A stretch of 64,000 nt of DNA, taken from the NCBI GenBank assembly GCA_900317755.1, contig ONHZ01000066.1, positions 1 to 64,000 of the forward strand, given 5' to 3'. Source of the stretch: an uncultured Lachnospiraceae bacterium (GTDB taxonomy: Bacteria; Bacillota; Clostridia; Lachnospirales; Lachnospiraceae). Below, in pieces: positions 1-23,003 of the stretch (its first letter is position 1; each line of letters starts with the position of its first letter). The notes under the pieces are model-generated. The model searched no databases. It saw only the letters and a program-made list of their open reading frames with translations, and was not told the origin of the DNA. A program made the translations under genes and the position numbers.

Positions 1-10
1 ATATAGCGTG

Positions 11-87
11 AGCTTAGTACCACTACGTCGAGTCATGAGTGGGAACGGGTTTTTCAGATGTACATTTTTTTGCGACGTGAGTATATA
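11..87. repeat. Partial palindromic intergenic repeat (right part)
   Basis: Positions 18-52 closely match 33703-33740: both carry ACCACTACGTCGAGTC, then AGTGGGAACGGGTTTT. Positions 63-87 resemble the right arm of the hairpin at 36268-36287 (a T-run, then TTGCGA and GAGT). The matching left arm would lie before the window. This looks like a non-coding repeat just ahead of the rfbC ribosome binding site. Its nature, whether a small mobile palindrome or an RNA element, is not known. Confidence 0.55.
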
Positions 88-104
88 GTTTTATAGGAGA
101 AAAA

Positions 105-683
105 ATGAGTAAATTAACAGTTACTAGAAATTGCGGCGGCATTGAAGGCCTTACCATTGTAGAACCGAAGGTCTTCGGCGACAACCGCGGCTACTTTATG
201 GAGACATATAATAAGAACGATTTCGAAGAAGAAGGTCTGCATTATGACTTCGTCCAGGACAATCAGTCCGCTAGCAAGAAGGGTGTTCTCCGTGGCCTTC
301 ACTTCCAGATCAATTTCCCACAGGACAAGCTTGTCCGCGTGATCAACGGCGAGGTCTTTGATGTTGCCGTAGATCTTCGTGATGGTTCAAAGACTTTCGG
401 CAAGTGGTTCGGTGTAAAGCTTTCAGCTGAGAATAAGAAGCAGTTCCTGATTCCGAAGAACTTCGCACATGGCTTCCTTGTTCTTTCTGATTATGCAGAG
501 TTCTGCTACAAAGTTACAGATTTCTATCATCCAAATGATGAGGGCGGCCTGATGTGGAACGATCCTGACATCGGTGTAGAATGGCCATTCCCAGAAGGGG
601 TTACAGCAAATGACCTGATCCTTTCTGAGAAGGACAAAGTAAATTCTTCATACAAGGAATTTTTAAAGTCCAAAGGAATGTAA
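105..683 (+). CDS. rfbC: dTDP-4-dehydrorhamnose 3,5-epimerase
   Basis: This cytosolic cupin epimerises dTDP-4-keto-6-deoxyglucose at C3 and C5 on the route to dTDP-L-rhamnose for surface polysaccharide. The 192-residue length is normal for the family. The family signature RGLHFQ with its catalytic His is near residue 65, followed by the QDKLVRVINGEVFDVAVDLR core and FAHGFLVLSD. The start is set by TAGGAG seven bases before ATG. No other rhamnose gene is in view; the rest of the pathway may lie upstream. A terminator follows directly, so this is the last gene of its unit. Confidence 0.93.
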   Translation: MSKLTVTRNCGGIEGLTIVEPKVFGDNRGYFMETYNKNDFEEEGLHYDFVQDNQSASKKGVLRGLHFQINFPQDKLVRVINGEVFDVAVDLRDGSKTFGKWFGVKLSAENKKQFLIPKNFAHGFLVLSDYAEFCYKVTDFYHPNDEGGLMWNDPDIGVEWPFPEGVTANDLILSEKDKVNSSYKEFLKSKGM

Positions 684-706
684 TTTACTTAATATTGTTA
701 TAGAAA

Positions 707-734
707 AAGAGCACCGCTGAGGTGCTCTTTTTTT
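707..734. terminator. Rho-independent terminator after rfbC, probably bidirectional
   Basis: The arms AAGAGCACC and GGTGCTCTT enclose a 5-base loop. A run of T follows and a run of A precedes. It separates rfbC from the convergent Rpn-family gene. The same GAGCACC/GGTGCTC stem occurs after the Rrf2 gene at 35586-35605. Confidence 0.9.
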
Positions 735-752
735 AGTGTAATAAAGCAGAAA

Positions 753-1634
753 TTAGTTCGTGGGCATCTTCTTTCTGAAGGCTTCTTCAGATATTCCAGC
801 CTGATTGGCTGCGTCCTTAATAGAAAGAAGGTTTTTCTTTACCAGTGCAACAAGTGTATTATACGTGCCCTGCTGCACGCCCTGCTGCACGCCCTGCTGC
901 ATCCCTTCCTGTCTTCCTTCTTCTTTGAACATGTTCATTGTTTCTGCTTCATCGTATTCAGTTAGCATCATACCTTTCACCTCCGCTTTATGAATTTCCA
1001 AGAAAGGTTTCAAAATATAATCCTTTGGCATCTGAGAAACCGCTAGGTCAACCGCCTGCTCGATTTCCATATCCTTACTGTTTTTTCTGACCTCCGCTAC
1101 GAACCAGGAATATTCCATAAGGGGGCGGCACATATCGAGTAGTTTATGGTTCCTGCCATAGTTGATGTTAAGCATCCTTACCCTGACCTCGATGTCAGCA
1201 TCGGCTCCTTCAGGGAACGAGTCGCTCAGTTTGAGGATTTTTTCATCCGGCTCGTCGGTAGTTCCGTTGTAGAAGACTACCAGTCTAGGTACAGGAAGTT
1301 GTATCAATCTGCTGCCGAATTTGTTCAGCTTATTCTCCTTTATGTACTTCTCATAGAGGTATCCGCAATATTGTAGCTGTCGTACTGGCATGTTCGGGTT
1401 GTAGGTGCTCTGCTGCTCGTAGAGGCTCATCTCGTCAGAAATCATAAATGAGACGTCGTTGTGCATGCCAAGATACAGGACTTCCTCGATGGTCGTGATT
1501 TTGATATCGTCAGGATTCTCATAATGTGAACCATTTATCGCATTGTATAACTCCAGCGTCCACTTCCGGTTTTCCTCACGTCCGAATATGAAGCTGAAAA
1601 GCCTGTCTTTGTACTCGTCATTTACTGCTGCCAT
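753..1634 (-). CDS. Rpn-family PD-(D/E)XK nuclease/putative transposase
   Basis: The 293-residue protein matches the Rpn recombination-promoting nuclease family, often labelled PD-(D/E)XK transposase. It has an N-terminal DRLFSFIFG segment, then DVSFMI, EQQSTYNPNMPVRQLQYCGY and LPVPRLVVFYNG, which are typical family blocks. The C-terminus holds EEGRQEGMQQGVQQGVQQG, a short-period hinge also seen in relatives. In DNA this is three 12-base units at 867-902. The start is supported by GGAGG before ATG. Related proteins stimulate RecA-independent recombination; here the gene stands alone, without terminal repeats of a transposon. Confidence 0.85.
   Translation of the reverse strand: MAAVNDEYKDRLFSFIFGREENRKWTLELYNAINGSHYENPDDIKITTIEEVLYLGMHNDVSFMISDEMSLYEQQSTYNPNMPVRQLQYCGYLYEKYIKENKLNKFGSRLIQLPVPRLVVFYNGTTDEPDEKILKLSDSFPEGADADIEVRVRMLNINYGRNHKLLDMCRPLMEYSWFVAEVRKNSKDMEIEQAVDLAVSQMPKDYILKPFLEIHKAEVKGMMLTEYDEAETMNMFKEEGRQEGMQQGVQQGVQQGTYNTLVALVKKNLLSIKDAANQAGISEEAFRKKMPTN
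867..902 (-). repeat. 12-bp tandem repeat inside the Rpn gene
   Basis: Three consecutive 12-base units (GCCCTGCTGCAC twice, then GCCCTGCTGCAT, read on +) encode the QQGV/M repeats near the C-terminus. Because the unit is a multiple of three, copy-number change would alter length by four residues without a frameshift. Confidence 0.85.
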
Positions 1635-1664
1635 TCACGCCTCCTCTAAATTGTTGTTATTCAT

Positions 1665-1693
1665 ATAATATCAGCATGGGACATATTAATCAA
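1665..1693 (-). promoter_or_regulatory. Sigma-A promoter for the Rpn gene
   Basis: On the minus strand TTGATT is followed after 17 bases by TATTAT, about 30 bases before the GGAGG ribosome binding site of the Rpn gene. Confidence 0.6.
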
Positions 1694-1758
1694 ATGAAAT
1701 TTTTATGATAATGAATTATTACTTTGATGAAAAAACAAAAGGTTAGCAAAATTTAGAA

Positions 1759-1840
1759 AGTTTCCTTGCATTTGTTTTTTTTCTTGTATAATGAATTTGA
1801 TGCGTTTGAAGTTTTATATGTTAGTTGTATGGAGGAATTC
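1759..1840 (+). repeat. Promoter/ribosome-binding-site cassette, copy A
   Basis: This segment runs from AGTTTCCTTGCATTTG through TATAAT (1787-1792) to GGAGGAATTC. It precedes the lipoprotein gene and is probably its promoter and leader. A second copy, matching at roughly 71 of 82 aligned positions by eye, lies at 3224-3302 just after mutY. The best -35 candidate, TTGCAT, sits only 15 bases from the -10, so the exact promoter geometry is uncertain. Confidence 0.75.
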
Positions 1841-1844
1841 ATTA

Positions 1845-2159
1845 ATGAAAAAGAAAATAATTACTGTCCTTCTTGCTATGTCAATGGCTGTAGGACTTGC
1901 AGCCTGCGGTTCTGCATCAAGCAGCAACACAGATTCAAAAAATCCGAGTGATACTGAGTCGGCGGAGACCGCAAAATCATCTGATGACTCAAAATCAGAC
2001 ACATCATCAAAGTCAGTACCATCGGAAGTGACAGAAGATAATATTTCTGATTTTCCAGTTACTGATGAAAGCGAATTTGAGTTAGAAATTAGTAAATGCG
2101 ATAAAATTCAATTGATCACAGTACATCTTGAAAAGGGAAAGATGAAATATGAAGGATGA
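1845..2159 (+). CDS. Small Ser/Asp-rich lipoprotein, possibly truncated
   Basis: The 104-residue product starts with a lipoprotein signal peptide, MKKKIITVLLAMSMAVGLAAC, whose LAAC lipobox makes Cys20-21 the likely lipidated residue. A low-complexity Ser/Asp/Thr/Lys spacer follows, then a short folded-looking segment (ISDFPVTDESEFELEISKCDKI) that stops abruptly. The ATG is five bases after GGAGGAATTC. The end overlaps the mutY start by 11 bases. I do not recognise a family. The short mature part and the repeats flanking this gene pair suggest the C-terminus may have been replaced. Confidence 0.75.
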   Translation: MKKKIITVLLAMSMAVGLAACGSASSSNTDSKNPSDTESAETAKSSDDSKSDTSSKSVPSEVTEDNISDFPVTDESEFELEISKCDKIQLITVHLEKGKMKYEG

Positions 2160-3225
2160 GACTGCTACCTGCCTGCCGAAACAGTTGATTGAAAAATTGA
2201 CGACATGGTACGAAGAGAATAAGAGGGACCTGCCCTGGCGGCAGACAAAGAATCCATATGCGGTGTGGGTATCGGAAATCATGCTGCAGCAGACCAGGGT
2301 CGAGACGGTGATTCCATATTATGAACGCTTTCTTTCTGTGCTTCCAGATGAAAAGGCACTTGCAGACTGCCCGGAGGACAGGCTCTTGAAACTCTGGGAA
2401 GGCCTTGGATATTACAGCCGGGTTCGCAATATGCAAAAGGCTGCCCAAATAATCTGCTCGCCAGATGGATTTTCTGGAAAATTTCCAGATTCTTATGAAA
2501 GTCTTCGTTCACTTCCCGGTCTTGGCGCCTATACGGCAGGGGCGATTGCATCGATCGCCTTTGGAGAAAAGGTGCCGGCTGTGGATGGTAATGCGCTTCG
2601 GATTCTGACAAGGCTTATGGCCGACGAACGTCTAATAGATCAGGAGAAGAATAAAAGAGCGATTTCACAAGAACTCATAATACTAATGGCAGAAGAAAAA
2701 GAGACTTTTTCGCCTGGTGATTTCAACCAGTCCTTTATGGATCTTGGTTCTTTAGTCTGTCTGCAGCATGCTGCTCCCCGTTGTGAGCTCTGCCCGCTGA
2801 AAGAGGACTGCCGTGCGCATGCGCTCGGAGAAGAAGAGGCATTTCCGAAAAAAGCACCAAAGAAAGAACGCCGCATTGAAGAGCGGACCATCCTTCGGAT
2901 TCGAGACGGAGAGCGGATTTTGATTGATAAAAGACCGTCAAAGGGACTTCTTGCCGGGCTTTGGGAATTTCCAAACGCGTTCGGGCATCTTTCGGAAAAG
3001 GAAGCACTTTCTTTTACAGAGCAGCTTGGCCTTCAGCCGCTTCAGATTGTCCCGCTGCCGGAGGCAAAGCATATTTTTACGCATATTGAGTGGCATATGA
3101 CGGGCTACGAAATCCGTGTGGCGTCTTTCGAAGGAAAGGTACCTGTGTCAGGCAGCGTCCTTGTGACACCAGAAGAGCTCATGAAAAGCTATCCAATGCC
3201 ATCTGCCTTCCGGGCTTACCGATAG
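2149..3225 (+). CDS. mutY: A/G-specific adenine DNA glycosylase
   Basis: MutY removes adenine mispaired with 8-oxoguanine. The 358-residue protein shows the N-terminal glycosylase domain with catalytic Glu in SEIMLQQTRV. Helix-hairpin-helix LPGLGAYTAGAI is followed by the catalytic Asp in VPAVDGNALR. A [4Fe-4S] loop has four Cys in CLQHAAPRCELCPLKEDC. The C-terminal NUDIX-like 8-oxoG recognition domain starts around residue 235. Its start overlaps the lipoprotein gene, implying translational coupling. Its stop codon overlaps the first bases of the second promoter-like repeat. Confidence 0.95.
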   Translation: MKDETATCLPKQLIEKLTTWYEENKRDLPWRQTKNPYAVWVSEIMLQQTRVETVIPYYERFLSVLPDEKALADCPEDRLLKLWEGLGYYSRVRNMQKAAQIICSPDGFSGKFPDSYESLRSLPGLGAYTAGAIASIAFGEKVPAVDGNALRILTRLMADERLIDQEKNKRAISQELIILMAEEKETFSPGDFNQSFMDLGSLVCLQHAAPRCELCPLKEDCRAHALGEEEAFPKKAPKKERRIEERTILRIRDGERILIDKRPSKGLLAGLWEFPNAFGHLSEKEALSFTEQLGLQPLQIVPLPEAKHIFTHIEWHMTGYEIRVASFEGKVPVSGSVLVTPEELMKSYPMPSAFRAYR

Positions 3226-3302
3226 TTTCCTTGCATTTGCTTTTTCTTGTATAATGAATGTAATGCGATTGCAGTTTTATTTGTTATTGTGCGGAGGAAT
3301 TC
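3224..3302 (+). repeat. Promoter/ribosome-binding-site cassette, copy B
   Basis: Near-copy of 1759-1840, including TATAAT (3250-3255) and GGAGGAATTC, but followed only by a 15-codon frame from GTG at 3303. It points into the 3' end of the convergent ABC-exporter operon, so any transcript from it would be antisense to that operon. Confidence 0.7.
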
Positions 3303-3323
3303 GTGAGGTGCTCTGTTTTCGTT

Positions 3324-3962
3324 TCACCATTTCGCAATCCGCTTGTATGAAATCGGAAGCAGCGGGCGCTTGTCGAGCTTGATATAGAGGAGCTTGGAAA
3401 TTGCAGCGCATACGACAAAGATAGCAACAGAAATAATAATAAGAGGTGCTGTTCCAAGATTTTTGAATGCTGTGCCTCCAAGGATGACGGCAAAGCTTGA
3501 GGCACTGCCCATCAGGAATATTACGATGAAATAATTGAGCCGGTAGCTGATCGGCGTGGAGATGAGCCACAGCGAGAGCAGGAGAATTCCGGTAAACATA
3601 TAGCTCTCGTAATTCTTGATCACGAAATTTAAGATAATAAAAACAAGTGAAGTGAGCGCTGCGAAGAAAATGCAGAAATTCGGGATGATCTTTGTCATGA
3701 GGCGCTTTCGAATCGGAGAATTCATAAAGAACTTCGATGAATCAAGCGGCATGAACAGCATGAAGAAGCTCGTAAAAATCGCATTTACCATGATGACGAT
3801 ATAGAAGCTCACAAACTCTATGCCTGTGCCGTTATCCATTAATAACAGGGACAGGCTTAAGAGAATCAGGATGAGAAACATGATGACGATGAATTTCAGG
3901 CTCTTTTTCCAAACCAGATTTTTGAATATGCTGTTTAATAGTTTGATATCTGAAATCAGCAT
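3324..3962 (-). CDS. ABC exporter membrane subunit (second)
   Basis: The 212-residue protein is almost wholly hydrophobic, with about six predicted membrane helices, short charged loops and no signal peptide. It is the last gene of a three-gene unit behind an ATPase and a similar-sized membrane protein, with a 12-base gap to the latter. This arrangement fits an ABC-2-type exporter with two half-size permeases. Substrate unknown. AAGGA seven bases upstream supports the ATG. Confidence 0.75.
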   Translation of the reverse strand: MLISDIKLLNSIFKNLVWKKSLKFIVIMFLILILLSLSLLLMDNGTGIEFVSFYIVIMVNAIFTSFFMLFMPLDSSKFFMNSPIRKRLMTKIIPNFCIFFAALTSLVFIILNFVIKNYESYMFTGILLLSLWLISTPISYRLNYFIVIFLMGSASSFAVILGGTAFKNLGTAPLIIISVAIFVVCAAISKLLYIKLDKRPLLPISYKRIAKW

Positions 3963-3974
3963 ATGCAGTCCTTT

Positions 3975-4622
3975 CTATTTTTTTGTAGTAACAACAGCCT
4001 TCTTATAAATCCTGTTATTATTTTTTATTTCCAAAAATGCACTTATGATAAGAACGATCACGCTTGTCGTGACTCTTCTTGGCATCGAGTACAAGCTCAA
4101 AATTGAACCAATACTGAAGCCAAGGATTGGCAGGAAAGACATAAAAATATAAAGGTAGACGACATCCGCAAACGAAATCAGAATCCTTTCCATTATGAGT
4201 TCAAAAAGGTACATCATGATGAAGGAGGATGCGACGATTGAAGCCTGCAGCATTTTCTCGCTGTCATCTTCATAGAGAATCACTAAATATGCAAGAAGAA
4301 AATAATATAAATAATTCATAATCCTTCTTACGGTATTTCCATATATGATCTTCTTAAAAGTGGGAAGTCCTTTTGAAGACGTCAGGAAGAACGTGAAATT
4401 ATTTATTTTCTTCCCACCGTAATAATCGAACTGGGTGAAATATTCGAGCATCCATTCATATGCGCCTAAGAATCCGCCAAAAATGAAATAGCGGTAAAAA
4501 TCCATGAGATTATTATGGTTATTTGTAAGCAGCAGCGAGGCGAAAAATGGTACAAGAGGAACAAGAATAAAAACCGATAAAAATAATTTTTTTCTTCGAA
4601 CTGATAGTAAGTAATATTTCAT
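3975..4622 (-). CDS. ABC exporter membrane subunit (first)
   Basis: This 215-residue membrane protein has about six hydrophobic segments. It starts within the stop of the upstream ATPase gene (four-base ATGA-type overlap), so the two are translationally coupled. No sequence family is recognised beyond ABC-2-like permeases. It lacks a strong ribosome binding site of its own, consistent with coupling. Confidence 0.75.
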   Translation of the reverse strand: MKYYLLSVRRKKLFLSVFILVPLVPFFASLLLTNNHNNLMDFYRYFIFGGFLGAYEWMLEYFTQFDYYGGKKINNFTFFLTSSKGLPTFKKIIYGNTVRRIMNYLYYFLLAYLVILYEDDSEKMLQASIVASSFIMMYLFELIMERILISFADVVYLYIFMSFLPILGFSIGSILSLYSMPRRVTTSVIVLIISAFLEIKNNNRIYKKAVVTTKK

Positions 4623-5524
4623 AGCACCATCCCTTGGGCTCTTCGTGAATAATGCTTCATCACGGCAAGCGATATTTCAGAAAGTGAAGCCGGGCGGATT
4701 TCACTCACTTTGTCCTCGAGATTCACTTTCTCAGTCGAGAGCGCAATTCCGTCAAAGCCTTTCTTGTTCACCGTTGTATCATAGAGAAAAGACTTAATAT
4801 CATCAGAAAGCTCGCTGTCATCATGCATGAAAATGTATTTTTCCTGCAGCTCGTCAGCGAAGCCTTTTTCAACGATCTGCCCATGCTCCATGATAATGAG
4901 GTAGTCGGTGATTTTTTCCATATCGCTGATATTGTGCGTAGAGAAAAATACGGTCCGGCCGTTTTTTTCGTCAAGATAATTTAATAACATCTTATTTAAG
5001 CTGTCACGCATCAGAGGGTCAAGTGCAGCAGATGGTTCATCTAAGATGAGCAGATCCGTGTTTCTTGAGAATGCTCCGCAGAGCATCAGCTTCATCAGAT
5101 TTCCATCGGAAAGCTGCGAAACCTTGTGGTTCTTTTCTGGAAGTTCCATGTCTTTGTAAAGTGCATTAAAATGCTCATTGTCAAAGCTCTTGAAGAGGAT
5201 GCCATACATATTCTGAACCTGCTCGATGCTCCAGTCCGGAAAGAAATATTCCTTTGCCGCAGTGAAAACAAGCCGCTCCTTTATATCATTCTCATCCTCT
5301 GCCATGGATTTCTGCTCGTCGAAATATCGTATGTCGCCTTCGAAATCCCGGTTTACGCCGGATAGGATATTGAGAAGCGTCGATTTGCCTGCTCCATTTT
5401 CGCCGACTAAGGCCACGGCAAGTCCCTTCTTTATGTGAAGCTCAGGAATCGAAAGCTCAAAGCCTTTGTATTTTTTATGAATATCTTTTCCGAATATGAC
5501 ATCGGGAATATTTTGTTCTGGCAT
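4619..5524 (-). CDS. ABC transporter ATP-binding protein
   Basis: The 301-residue ATPase has Walker A GENGAGKST, an ABC signature in degenerate form (QLSDGNLMKLML), Walker B LLILDEPSAALDP and the H-loop FFSTHNISD. The first 215 residues are the nucleotide-binding domain; the remaining 80 form an extension common in antibiotic- or peptide-export ATPases. AGGAG precedes the ATG. No GntR or two-component regulator is adjacent, unlike many exporters of this kind, so its control and substrate are open. Confidence 0.85.
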   Translation of the reverse strand: MPEQNIPDVIFGKDIHKKYKGFELSIPELHIKKGLAVALVGENGAGKSTLLNILSGVNRDFEGDIRYFDEQKSMAEDENDIKERLVFTAAKEYFFPDWSIEQVQNMYGILFKSFDNEHFNALYKDMELPEKNHKVSQLSDGNLMKLMLCGAFSRNTDLLILDEPSAALDPLMRDSLNKMLLNYLDEKNGRTVFFSTHNISDMEKITDYLIIMEHGQIVEKGFADELQEKYIFMHDDSELSDDIKSFLYDTTVNKKGFDGIALSTEKVNLEDKVSEIRPASLSEISLAVMKHYSRRAQGMVL

Positions 5525-5835
5525 TCTTTTCTCCTATTTGATGTTCAGGCTCTTATTTTGCTCTTTCATGTTAACAGATGACTGACCGATTGTTTTCTTC
5601 TATTGCCTAAAAATATATAGTAGTAAATTTTACCTCTTATATTTTATCACAGAAAGATGAATTCATTAAATAGTATGCTGCTATATTTGCTTTTTTACAG
5701 AGAATGATATTGTTAATGAATCATTTCATGCGTAATTAGTAAATTTTTGATGGCATTATTCTGATATTTGCTTTAGAATGGGTGAAATGTTTTTGGTTTG
5801 CGCTTGGCTATAGAATATTAAGATTGGAAGATAAT
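5525..5835. other. Divergent intergenic region, exporter operon / mnmA
   Basis: About 310 AT-rich bases separate two divergent genes. On the minus strand TTAATG, 17 bases and TAAAAT near 5650 form a plausible promoter for the exporter operon. No clear mnmA promoter, RNA structure or small gene was found. Confidence 0.5.
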
Positions 5836-7029
5836 ATGGCAGAAAATGAAAAGACAGCACTAATTGCAATGAGCGGGGGAGTGGACAGCTCTGTTTCGGC
5901 TGTGCTCATGCTTGAAAGGGGATATACCTGCATGGGCGCGACGATGAAGCTCTATGACAGCCCGGAGAAGAATCTTAAGAAGACGAAGACCTGCTGCTCA
6001 GACAGGGATATTTATGATGCGGCATACGTGGCTATTAAGCTCGGCATGCCCTATGAGATCATTGATCTTTCTGATGAATTCAAAGACAAGGTCATCATGC
6101 CCTTCATCAAGACATACGAGGCCGGCGGCACGCCGAATCCCTGCATTGAATGCAACAGGTATTTGAAATTTGTTGCCCTTCGGAAGCTTGCAAAGGAAAA
6201 GGGTTATGACAATATCGTGACCGGGCATTATGCGCAGATTGAGTACAATGAAGAGACCAGGCGTTATTTACTTAAGCGTTCTGTTGATGCAAAGAAGGAC
6301 CAATCCTATGTATTGTATTCTCTTACGCAGGAAGAGCTTGCGCATACGATTTTCCCGCTTGGCGGTATGACGAAGGATGAGACACGTGCGATTGCAGAAA
6401 AGCATGGACTCATCAATGCGGAAAAGGGCGATTCTCAGGATATATGTTTTGTTCCGGACGGCGATTATGTCGGCTTCATGGAAAGGTACCAGAACAAGAG
6501 CTATGCGCCTGGGGATTTCATTGATGAAAATGGAAAAGTAATAGGCCAGCACAAAGGCGCCGTGCATTATACGACTGGACAGAGAAAAGGGCTTGGCATT
6601 GCAGCAGGTGAGCGGATTTTTGTCTATGACAAGGACATGGAGAAAAATCTTGTCTTCGTGGGTTCTGAGGATAAGGTTTTTTCAAAGGAATTTATTGTCC
6701 GTGATGTAAACTGGATTTCTGTGCCTTCAATTGACGCGCCAGTCCGGCTTTCCATCATGACGCGCTACCGCGGGAAGGAAGCTATGGGGACGGTTGAAAA
6801 AATTTCTTCAGAAGAAGTTTCGGAATACTATGCTTCACGGGGACGGAATTTTTCAGCAGCTGAAACTCATTCTGAGAATGGGCAGGAAGATTTCAATACA
6901 TCAGATTCATATTACAAGGTCACGTTTGACACGCCGCAGCGTGCTATCACAACCGGCCAGGCTGCAGTATTCTATGATGGTGAATATGTATATGGTGGTG
7001 GAACAATCGACCTCGTACTGAAAGACTGA
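5836..7029 (+). CDS. mnmA: tRNA-specific 2-thiouridylase MnmA
   Basis: MnmA makes 2-thiouridine at position 34 of tRNA-Lys, -Glu and -Gln using ATP and sulfur passed from a cysteine desulfurase. The P-loop SGGVDSS starts near residue 11. The catalytic Cys pair is in NPCIECNR and in the later QDICFV. The 397 residues exceed the usual ~360 because of an insert near the C-terminus (around residues 325-365, rich in Ser and Glu). The ATG at 5836 is preferred because the upstream in-frame extension has no family match. Confidence 0.93.
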   Translation: MAENEKTALIAMSGGVDSSVSAVLMLERGYTCMGATMKLYDSPEKNLKKTKTCCSDRDIYDAAYVAIKLGMPYEIIDLSDEFKDKVIMPFIKTYEAGGTPNPCIECNRYLKFVALRKLAKEKGYDNIVTGHYAQIEYNEETRRYLLKRSVDAKKDQSYVLYSLTQEELAHTIFPLGGMTKDETRAIAEKHGLINAEKGDSQDICFVPDGDYVGFMERYQNKSYAPGDFIDENGKVIGQHKGAVHYTTGQRKGLGIAAGERIFVYDKDMEKNLVFVGSEDKVFSKEFIVRDVNWISVPSIDAPVRLSIMTRYRGKEAMGTVEKISSEEVSEYYASRGRNFSAAETHSENGQEDFNTSDSYYKVTFDTPQRAITTGQAAVFYDGEYVYGGGTIDLVLKD

Positions 7030-7062
7030 TATTGTTTTTTGACATGGATTTTCTATGTTGAA

Positions 7063-7161
7063 GCTACCACAAATGCTAATAGTACTGGATGTGGTAGCCA
7101 AATTCCAAAATCAAATTTATTACTAGCTACCACAAGTAGCATTAGGGCATCATGTGGTAGC
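7063..7161. repeat. Two tandem 36-bp palindromes
   Basis: Each unit (7063-7098 and 7126-7161) has perfect 9-base arms GCTACCACA and TGTGGTAGC around an 18-base centre. The units repeat every 63 bases. They lie between mnmA and the shikimate kinase gene. They could be operators for a dimeric repressor, hairpins in RNA, or a small repeat family; nothing in the sequence decides between these. Confidence 0.8.
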
Positions 7162-7182
7162 CAGAATGTGGGAAAAAGAAAA

Positions 7183-7686
7183 ATGAAAAAGAATAATATT
7201 GTTTTAATCGGCATGCCGGGTGTGGGAAAGAGCACAGTCGGCGTCATACTTGCAAAAGAGATCGGATATGAGTTTGTGGATTCTGATCTTCTGATTCAGA
7301 AGAGGGAGAAGAGGCTTCTTCACGAGATTATTGAAGACGAAGGCACGGATGGCTTTCTAAAAATCGAGGAGGATGTAAATGCTTCCATCGAGACAGAGCA
7401 TTCTGTCATAGCTACCGGAGGCAGCGTTGTCTATGGTCAAAGAGCGATGGCGCATTTAAAAGACATTGCGACAGTTGTCTATCTGAAGCTTGACTATGAA
7501 GATCTTTCAAAGAGGCTAGGAAATCTTCATAACCGCGGCGTTGTCTTGAAGGACGGTCAGACATTGAAGGACATTTATGATGAGCGGTGTGCACTTTATG
7601 AAAAATATGCAGATGTCGTTGTAGATGAGAAGGGAAGGGACATTGAGGCAACACTTGAACTTGTCAGGCAGAAGATTCAGCAGTAA
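7183..7686 (+). CDS. aroK: Shikimate kinase
   Basis: The enzyme phosphorylates shikimate in aromatic amino acid synthesis. The 167-residue product begins MKKNNIVLIGMPGVGKST, with the P-loop GMPGVGKST. The family DSD metal/substrate motif is in FVDSDLLIQ, and the glycine loop is ATGGSVVY. The ATG at 7183 is chosen because the frame upstream runs through the two palindromes and has no domain. No other aro gene is adjacent; gluconate-kinase-type relatives are less likely given the DSD motif. Confidence 0.87.
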   Translation: MKKNNIVLIGMPGVGKSTVGVILAKEIGYEFVDSDLLIQKREKRLLHEIIEDEGTDGFLKIEEDVNASIETEHSVIATGGSVVYGQRAMAHLKDIATVVYLKLDYEDLSKRLGNLHNRGVVLKDGQTLKDIYDERCALYEKYADVVVDEKGRDIEATLELVRQKIQQ

Positions 7687-7766
7687 TGTCTCAATACTTG
7701 CAAGATGACGAATGCTTACAGCCTATTTGGTATTGAAAATAGTGCGAAGTAACCTTTGATTTTGCA

Positions 7767-7795
7767 TTGTTAATTCGCTGTCAAAATGCTATACT
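7767..7795 (+). promoter_or_regulatory. Sigma-A promoter for purM
   Basis: TTGTTA, 17 bases, TATACT. It gives a leader of about 100 bases before purM. No purine-riboswitch core was seen in that leader. Confidence 0.6.
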
Positions 7796-7905
7796 AGTCA
7801 CGGTGTGTTTGGCACTGTGGCTTTCTATGCAGAAATTTGCCCGATGAATTTCTTAAATGGTTCGTTGGCAGCGCTGCATTCAATAAATTTTAATTGGAGA
7901 GAGAT

Positions 7906-8940
7906 ATGGATTACAAGAGCTCAGGCGTAGATATCGAAGCAGGATACAAATCAGTTGAACTTATGAAAAAGTATGTCAAGGAGACAGTAAGACCTGAGGT
8001 TTTGGGTGGTCTTGGCGGATTTTCCGGTGCGTTTTCACTTGACAAAATTAAAGACATGGATGAGCCGGTGCTGGTTTCCGGAACGGACGGTGTCGGCACG
8101 AAAATCAAGCTTGCCTTTCTTCTTGACAAGCATGACACAATCGGAATCGACTGCGTTGCCATGTGCGTAAACGACATCGCATGTGCAGGTGGCGAACCTC
8201 TTTTCTTCCTTGACTATATTGCCTGCGGAAAGAATTATCCTGAGAAAATTGCGGAAATCGTAAAGGGCGTAGCAGAAGGCTGCAAGCAGTCTGACTGTGC
8301 ACTGATCGGCGGCGAGACTGCTGAGCATCCTGGCCTCATGCCTGAAGAAGAATATGATCTCGCTGGCTTTTCAGTCGGTGTTGTAGATAAGAAAGACATT
8401 ATCACAGGTGAGAATCTGAAGGCTGGTGATGTCCTTGTCGGAATGGCATCAACGGGCGTACATTCAAATGGATTTTCGCTGGTAAGAAAGGTCTTTGAAA
8501 AGGAACTTACACCTGATGGTCTCAGGGCTCCTGTCGAAGAACTCGATGGGAAATCACTTGGCGAAGTTCTTCTTGCACCTACCAGGATTTATGTAAAGGC
8601 ACTTAAAGCCATCAAGGATGCCGGCATAAAGGTAAAGGCTGCCAGCCACATCACAGGCGGCGGCTTCTATGAGAATGTACCGAGAATGCTGATTGATGGC
8701 AAGCGTGCAGTCATTGAAAAGAGCTCATATCCAGTTCCTGCAATTTTCGGCCTCATCCAGAAGAAGGGCGACATCGAAGAACGCATCATGTACAACACCT
8801 TCAACATGGGCATCGGCATGGTTCTTGCAATTGACAGGAATGAAGTTACGGGTGCTATGAAGGCCATCCGTTCAGCAGGTGATACACCTTACATCATTGG
8901 TGAAATTGCTGACGGCGAGAAAGACGTGGAGCTCATATGA
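7906..8940 (+). CDS. purM: Phosphoribosylformylglycinamidine cyclo-ligase
   Basis: PurM closes the imidazole ring to give AIR in purine synthesis. The 344-residue protein has the family's GTKIKLAF substrate loop, [13 protein letters not shown] and the [12 protein letters not shown] glycine motif near residue 250. ATG at 7906 follows GGAGAG at the right distance; an upstream TTG in the same frame overlaps that site and is rejected. It is followed by purN and purD on the same strand. Its TGA stop lies inside the first bases of a palindromic element. Confidence 0.95.
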
Positions 8941-21250: not shown

Positions 21251-21275
21251 AACTTGCTTATTTTCTGAAATATTC

Positions 21276-23003
21276 TTAGCACGTAAACTGCTGCATATTC
21301 TGCTCGAGGGCATTCGCAATATTCTTTAGCTCGTCAGAATTGTTCTTCATATCGCCTGCGATATTTGAAATCGTAGATACTGAAGCGGAAGATTCCTCAG
21401 TAGATGCTGCATTTTCTTCTGCGATTGCAGAAAGACTTTCTACAGTAGATACTACATTTGCTCTTGCTTCTTCCATTGAATTCATCTTTTCTGCAATAGA
21501 ATTGATTCCATTTTCTGAACTCTCTATGCCATCAGAAACAGCCTGGAATGCTTCTGAAGTCCTGTCAACGTCAGAAGACTGCCTTTCAATGATGTCTTTT
21601 ACTTCCTCCATTGTTGCAACAGATTTTTCAGATTCCTGAATCAATACATCTATGATCTTTTCAATCTGCTTTGCAGAATTGTCAGACTGGTCTGCAAGCT
21701 TTTGAATCTGGCTTGCTACAACGGCAAAGCCACGTCCTGCTTCACCAGCACGGGCAGCCTCGATAGAAGCATTGAGGGAGAGAAGATTTGTTTCTTCTGC
21801 AATGTCTGAAATAAGCCCGGTAACTTCGCGAATCTTCTGGGTGGATTCGTTTGTAGCACGGGTCTGTTCAGAAATAGTCTGAATAGTTGCCTTTGTCTCG
21901 TTATTTACTTCGCCGAGCTCTTCAAGCGTCTTTACTGCATCATCATGAGCACTGCGCATCTTTGCGGCTGTGTTCTTTAGTTCATTTACCTCAGAGGTTG
22001 TTTCCTGAATCATTGAACCAATCTGCATTACAGAATCTGAAGCATTTGATGTTTCCTGAGCCTGGCTCGTTGCACCATTTGCGATTTCTTCAACGGCAGT
22101 ATCGACCTGTGCTGAAGTATCAGACATATTTGATGCATTTTTATAAATATTTGTAGAAGAATTCAGAAGAGTAGAACTCTGTGAACGGATATTGTTTATC
22201 GTATTTGAAAGTGTCTGCTCAAGTCTGATGATCGCACGACCCTGGACGCCAAATTCATCATTTCTTGAAGAAAGAGCCTTTTCACGATCATGGATTCTGA
22301 AATCAAGCTTTGACATACGGTTGATGACATGAGTAGCTTCAAATATAGGTTTAATAACAGTATTCAGAATCATTGCAAATATGACAGCGATAATGAAACC
22401 TATGATGAACGCTATGATGGTAATCAGAAGGATCATTTTTGAAACTACGCCTGTGACATCGCTCTGGTCAGCGGAGCATATCAATACGAAATCATTCGAC
22501 TTCGAAACATAGTAAGATGACATCTTGATTGTTCCGTTAAAGTCGTATGTGGTGAAGGCACCTTTTGGAGAATTCCCGGCCTGTATCTCAGCAACGACTC
22601 CCTTTATTGCAGCATTCTCTACAGGCTGTCCGATTTTGTCAGCTGTAGGATGGTAAAGCATCGTGCCGTCACTGCTTACGATATAGAAATACGATGAGCC
22701 AAGTCCTGTGATTTTCTTCCCTTCAAGCATAGGCGTGAGCGTATCTGTCGAAAGGACTGATTCCTTATCCTCATTTCCGTTGAGCCTCAAATCAATACTA
22801 TCACCAATTGAATCAACCATGTCTGTCATGGAATTTTCAATAAGTTTAAGAGAGGTTTTCCTGGTAAGAATACTAGTAATAATAAGACATGAAATCAGAA
22901 TGCAGGCCATTCCAATATTAATCATAATGATCAGCCTGAGCTTAATTGAGAACTTAGGCTTATCCCCTGAAAGGTTTTCGTTTGGCATACTCTGTGTATC
23001 CAT
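21276..23003 (-). CDS. Methyl-accepting chemotaxis protein
   Basis: The 575-residue chemoreceptor has an N-terminal membrane helix (~20-48), an extracellular CACHE-type sensor (~60-180 with [14 protein letters not shown]), a second helix (~190-218), HAMP, and a long coiled-coil signalling domain. The hairpin tip [28 protein letters not shown] is the universal CheA/CheW contact. It implies a chemotactic, probably flagellated cell. The ligand is unknown. GGAGG before ATG supports the start. Confidence 0.95.

Follow-up and report, generated by a model that had tools for sequence, protein, structure and literature searches.

A duplicated promoter-like leader flanking a lipoprotein-like ORF and mutY in a Lachnospiraceae genome

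Among known systems, the closest to the locus described here is the ordinary local segmental duplication, in this instance of a promoter and leader. The locus resembles such duplications in having two close copies in direct orientation that were not found in the relatives searched. However, it differs in that only a non-coding control region is recognisable, and no duplicated gene is left. A looser comparison can be made with gene-activating tandem duplications as described in one report (PMC11111574); the idea that a duplication can alter gene expression is common to both, but at our locus any activation is putative, and 11% divergence already separates the copies. A literature search on mutY with duplication, promoter and Lachnospiraceae found nothing relevant among the titles listed, and a search on promoter duplication likewise found nothing relevant there apart from this report. 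On balance, we think it probable that the locus reflects a lineage-specific local duplication of a promoter-like leader, in which copy 1 starts a transcript that spans mutY as well as the lipoprotein-like ORF, while copy 2 survives as a remnant. The mechanism is an ordinary one, not a new one.

The window, i.e., the whole stretch of 64,000 nucleotides that was analysed, corresponds to positions 1-64000 of contig C65 in the assembly G000 (2,148,490 bases in 72 contigs, 98.8% complete), and the duplicated segment is situated 1.7 kb from the beginning of this contig (Table 1). In a local alignment of 1756-1840 with 3221-3302, 73 of 85 columns are identical (86%), and the differences comprise 9 substitutions, one 2-base indel and one 1-base indel. 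The alignment score of 105 compares with a maximum of 28 among 200 shuffles, and a BLAST search of the genome against itself pairs the copies with an E-value of 9.5e-21. An earlier note on this DNA, which had counted 71 of 82 positions between coordinates that agree with ours to within a few bases, and which had described the repeats as flanking a 1.38-kb segment, is therefore confirmed in these respects; the interval is 1,380 bases (1841-3220), and the copies are in direct orientation at the same locus. Because the longest exact runs common to the copies, as read from the alignment, are just 16-19 bases, a collapse of the short-read assembly here is unlikely. Identity ends abruptly at both edges of the copies. 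Nothing adjoining either copy is duplicated, and no flanking homology above shuffles was detected on either side. The earlier note had a recent rearrangement in view, but the 11% divergence and the loss of any flanking homology lend this no support; the duplication is apparently old, local and specific to this lineage.

Table 1. Features at and around the duplicated segment (coordinates in the window).
Feature	Coordinates	Strand	Basis
Rpn-like protein gene	753..1634	-	Weak TIGR01784 match, 24.8 bits, below the 52.1 cut-off
Copy 1 of duplicated segment	1756..1840	+	Alignment; TTGCAT 1766, TATAAT 1787, leader, GGAGG ribosome-binding site 1831; "promoter" is an inferred label
Small lipoprotein-like ORF, 104 aa	1845..2159	+	ORF call; lipobox read off the sequence
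mutY, A/G-specific adenine glycosylase, 358 aa	2149..3225	+	TIGR01084, HhH-GPD, NUDIX_4, PDB MutY matches
Copy 2 of duplicated segment	3221..3302	+	Alignment; first bases contain the mutY stop; no clear + strand gene after it
Operon of three genes, convergent with copy 2 (two membrane proteins, ABC ATPase)	3324..5524	-	ORF calls, profile searches

In both copies, TTGCAT and TATAAT are separated by a T-rich spacer and followed by a leader and GGAGGAATTC. The run of T in the spacer consists of 8 T in copy 1, and of C followed by 5 T in copy 2. Differences between the copies affect 3 of the 48 columns that make up the promoter core and the ribosome-binding site, versus 8 of 34 in the leader between them (Fisher p 0.045, for regions picked after the alignment had been viewed and with column 3 excluded), which gives a weak hint that the function of both copies was retained for a time. 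The two hexamers are separated by 15 bases in copy 1 and 13 in copy 2, outside the 16-18 bases of a sigma-70-type promoter, and a consensus promoter scan limited to spacers of 16-18 bases lists neither pair. Because of these results, the strength of both putative promoters is doubtful. It had been suggested that the event put mutY behind a lipoprotein promoter; mutY does stand directly behind the lipoprotein ORF, but the spacers and the scan do not bear out an active promoter.

It is conceivable that both copies are still used, with copy 2 driving a short transcript, a 15-codon ORF starting with GTG (3303) or an antisense RNA into the ABC operon. The full retention of the hexamers and ribosome-binding site in copy 2 would agree with such a role, but we consider it improbable, given the 13-base spacer of that copy and the lack of a convincing ORF after it. 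Moreover, the predicted RNA folds of the two copies are not significant (z 0.13 and -0.90), and Rfam searches over positions 1-8000 gave two sub-threshold matches, neither on a copy, and none at the gathering score. On these fold and Rfam results, a structured cis-regulatory RNA leader was also rejected; covariation from two sequences is uninformative. Slippage in the T-run of a retained leader pair could in principle tune expression of the DNA-repair gene and hence the mutation rate, an idea to which we give almost no credence.

A different possibility is that a common promoter type, or a short mobile repeat, happens by chance to lie on both sides of the lipoprotein ORF and mutY. In one relative, G043, TTGCATTTG and a T-run form a promoter-like core that resembles copy 1 and is spaced 17 bases from TATACT. 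It precedes what looks by eye like an rpsB start, so that the core, taken alone, may represent a common style. However, the 2.15-Mb assembly holds two cassette-length copies only, which makes this possibility very improbable and rules out a scattered promoter family. The next BLAST match is 18 bases long (E 0.016), nine weak own-genome matches (L003-L011) turned out on re-alignment to be short matches only, and the pattern TTGCAT-N8-18-TATAATG has seven sites in the genome, of which the five beyond the copies have unrelated spacers. Two copies also fall short of the several dispersed copies that characterise MITE- or REP-like repeats. Mobile elements were further ruled out by a comparison of 1640-3400 with plasmids and phages, which gave no match at megablast sensitivity, and by a search of viral contigs, which contain no exact match to the core.

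Searches of related genomes gave a consistent picture. A 521-base query found nothing in five congeners (three of the five are <85% complete). With a 406-base query, 110 of 397 family genomes (including G000) had some match at E-values up to 0.01; the matches are short and fall mostly on the ribosome-binding site and signal-peptide codons, and none in the 396 other genomes is of cassette length. The longest match within a copy outside this genome (G383, 57 bases, 78%) was rejected, as it consists of T-rich sequence, a degenerate -10 and then further T-rich repeats. Nor was a comparable copy found among 395 relatives (394 besides G000, in a set that overlaps the congener and family sets); nine besides G000 have matches, which are 21 to 48 bases long, and by eye the majority are not obviously promoters. 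The leader motif with GGAGG, for which about 0.04 sites per genome are expected by chance, occurs at three sites in G000, all on contig C65. In the 396 other family genomes, it occurs at 16 sites versus 16 control sites, i.e., at background, which is further evidence against a common promoter type. The third site in G000 (48834-48792, minus strand) has ATATAAT and then a AAGTTTTATTTGTTAGGAGG leader before an iron-alcohol-dehydrogenase-like ORF (gene named by eye), and is a possible third relative of the duplicated leader.

With two copies in the assembly and none comparable in the relatives searched, the duplicated segment belongs to no scattered promoter family and does not reflect an ancient, fixed gene order. 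The earlier note had itself raised both of these explanations as ones that would make a recent rearrangement unnecessary; the cassette is not scattered, and the gene order around mutY is not fixed in relatives, as described below.

The MutY protein scores 300.5 bits against TIGR01084, above the cut-off of 286.5, has HhH-GPD and NUDIX_4 domains and matches solved MutY structures in the PDB; the gene at 2149-3225 is a normal member of the family. Its closest matches are congeners (68-70% identity, compared to at most 56% for loci of other genera), and for this reason we take mutY to be native to the genus and not acquired from afar. It starts at ATG 2149, with an 11-base overlap with the lipoprotein ORF. 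As noted earlier, its stop codon (TAG 3223-3225) lies inside copy 2. The C-terminus ends at the copy 2 boundary and is the shortest of the set compared; of 82 relatives, 9 were excluded from the count, and each of the 73 that align up to or past residue 355 extends at least one residue more. These data fit a junction that formed at the extreme 3' end of mutY and at which copy 2 supplies the stop codon. The junction on the 5' side is equally tight.

We recovered mutY in two of the five congeners, G002 and G003; its absence from the matches of the other three is perhaps due to incompleteness. The neighbours of mutY in G000 differ from those in G002 and G003 on both sides, and because of this a rearrangement beside mutY is likely. 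The mutY stretches of these two congeners have no match, at E-values up to 1e-2, to the seven non-mutY proteins of 105-7029 that were tested. In both, the gene that directly follows mutY encodes a sensor (89.5% identity across 669 residues), and the intergenic regions are related as well. In G000, the sensor gene is not found after mutY, where there is a different neighbour, and only distant paralogues exist (27-32%). Nor do 80 mutY loci from other genera contain the sensor gene, at a threshold of 1e-5. Among G000, G002 and G003, the MutY proteins hardly differ in their identities to one another (70, 68 and 72%), so G000 may be an outgroup to the other two, and the downstream order in G002 and G003 may be non-ancestral. 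Neither copy resembles the region after mutY in G002 or G003 clearly above shuffles; in the best case, 32 of 300 shuffles reach the score. Relatives of the ABC ATPase are found in G001 and G003 (45-47%), in stretches that, as far as they were read, do not contain mutY. The two membrane proteins of the same operon have no family match in profile searches.

The lipoprotein-like ORF (ATG 1845, 104 codons) directly follows copy 1 and encodes a signal peptide, a LAAC lipobox-like motif (read by eye) and a Ser/Asp-rich stretch; it does not reach the curated cut-off of any family. The earlier note described it as looking short. We found no support for truncation; a search of the 396 other family genomes with the C-terminal half gave no convincing homologue (best E 0.044). 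The possibility that this lipoprotein adjoins mutY in other genera is likewise unsupported, as tblastn gave no match at 1e-3 in 80 mutY loci (the neighbour table of these loci covers 40 of the 80).

Under the local duplication that we favour, a promoter-like region would have been copied locally in this lineage, together with the untranslated leader and the ribosome-binding site that follow it, and the event would have left mutY directly behind the lipoprotein ORF. Copy 1 most likely initiates a transcript of the lipoprotein ORF and, through the overlap of the two ORFs, of mutY. Copy 2 abuts the mutY frame, gives it its stop codon and reads into the end of the convergent ABC operon. Since no recognisable gene lies behind copy 2, we prefer to see it as a remnant; it is most likely a leftover of the duplication or rearrangement, whose remaining traces would have decayed or been removed. 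We infer promoter activity, co-transcription and the order of events.

The main alternative is that an ancestral unit of mutY, promoter and lipoprotein was duplicated in tandem, that a shortened lipoprotein was fused to the start of mutY, and that the outer mutY and lipoprotein were lost. Such a history accounts for the direct orientation of the copies, for copy 2 abutting mutY and for the lipoprotein ORF ending just inside mutY. However, it requires two later deletions, and one of them must have stopped precisely where copy 1 begins. A mutY remnant upstream of copy 1 and a lipoprotein remnant downstream of copy 2 were both sought, and nothing rose above shuffles; without such remnants outside the copies, a simple tandem duplication needs additional losses. 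The position of the mutY stop within copy 2 and the short C-terminus also favour a new junction at the 3' end of mutY over an ancestral neighbour. We therefore regard the tandem unit as a serious but unlikely alternative. The proposal of a tandem duplication or recombination event thus stands as regards homologous local copies and an altered mutY neighbourhood, but the flanks, which are not duplicated, lend no support to a tandem event. Read as a local duplication, the locus is a small, clear case in which a control region was copied next to a repair gene, and it illustrates the drift of gene order around mutY in Lachnospiraceae. If mutY expression truly changed, this lineage might have a different mutation rate.

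Some further observations concern neighbouring genes. The Rpn-like gene (753-1634, minus strand) contains QGVQQGVQQG repeats in frame, and contig C41 carries a closely similar paralogue of it (L013, 347-1204). DNA similarity between the two also covers the pre-gene region 1654-1702, and the pair looks recently copied. E. coli Rpn proteins are reported to raise RecA-independent recombination when overexpressed (PMC5350276), and in another study Rpn proteins are described as toxin-antitoxin, anti-phage proteins (PMC10327210); a role of the Rpn-like gene in the rearrangement is speculation. Right after an mnmA-like ORF (5782-7029), there are two 39-base repeats (7062-7100 and 7125-7163; 74%; AGCTACCACAA...TGTGGTAGCCA). 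Finally, a chemotaxis-sensor-like match at 21273-22679 (minus strand) contains one in-frame TAA, and is perhaps a broken gene or a match extending past the end of a gene.
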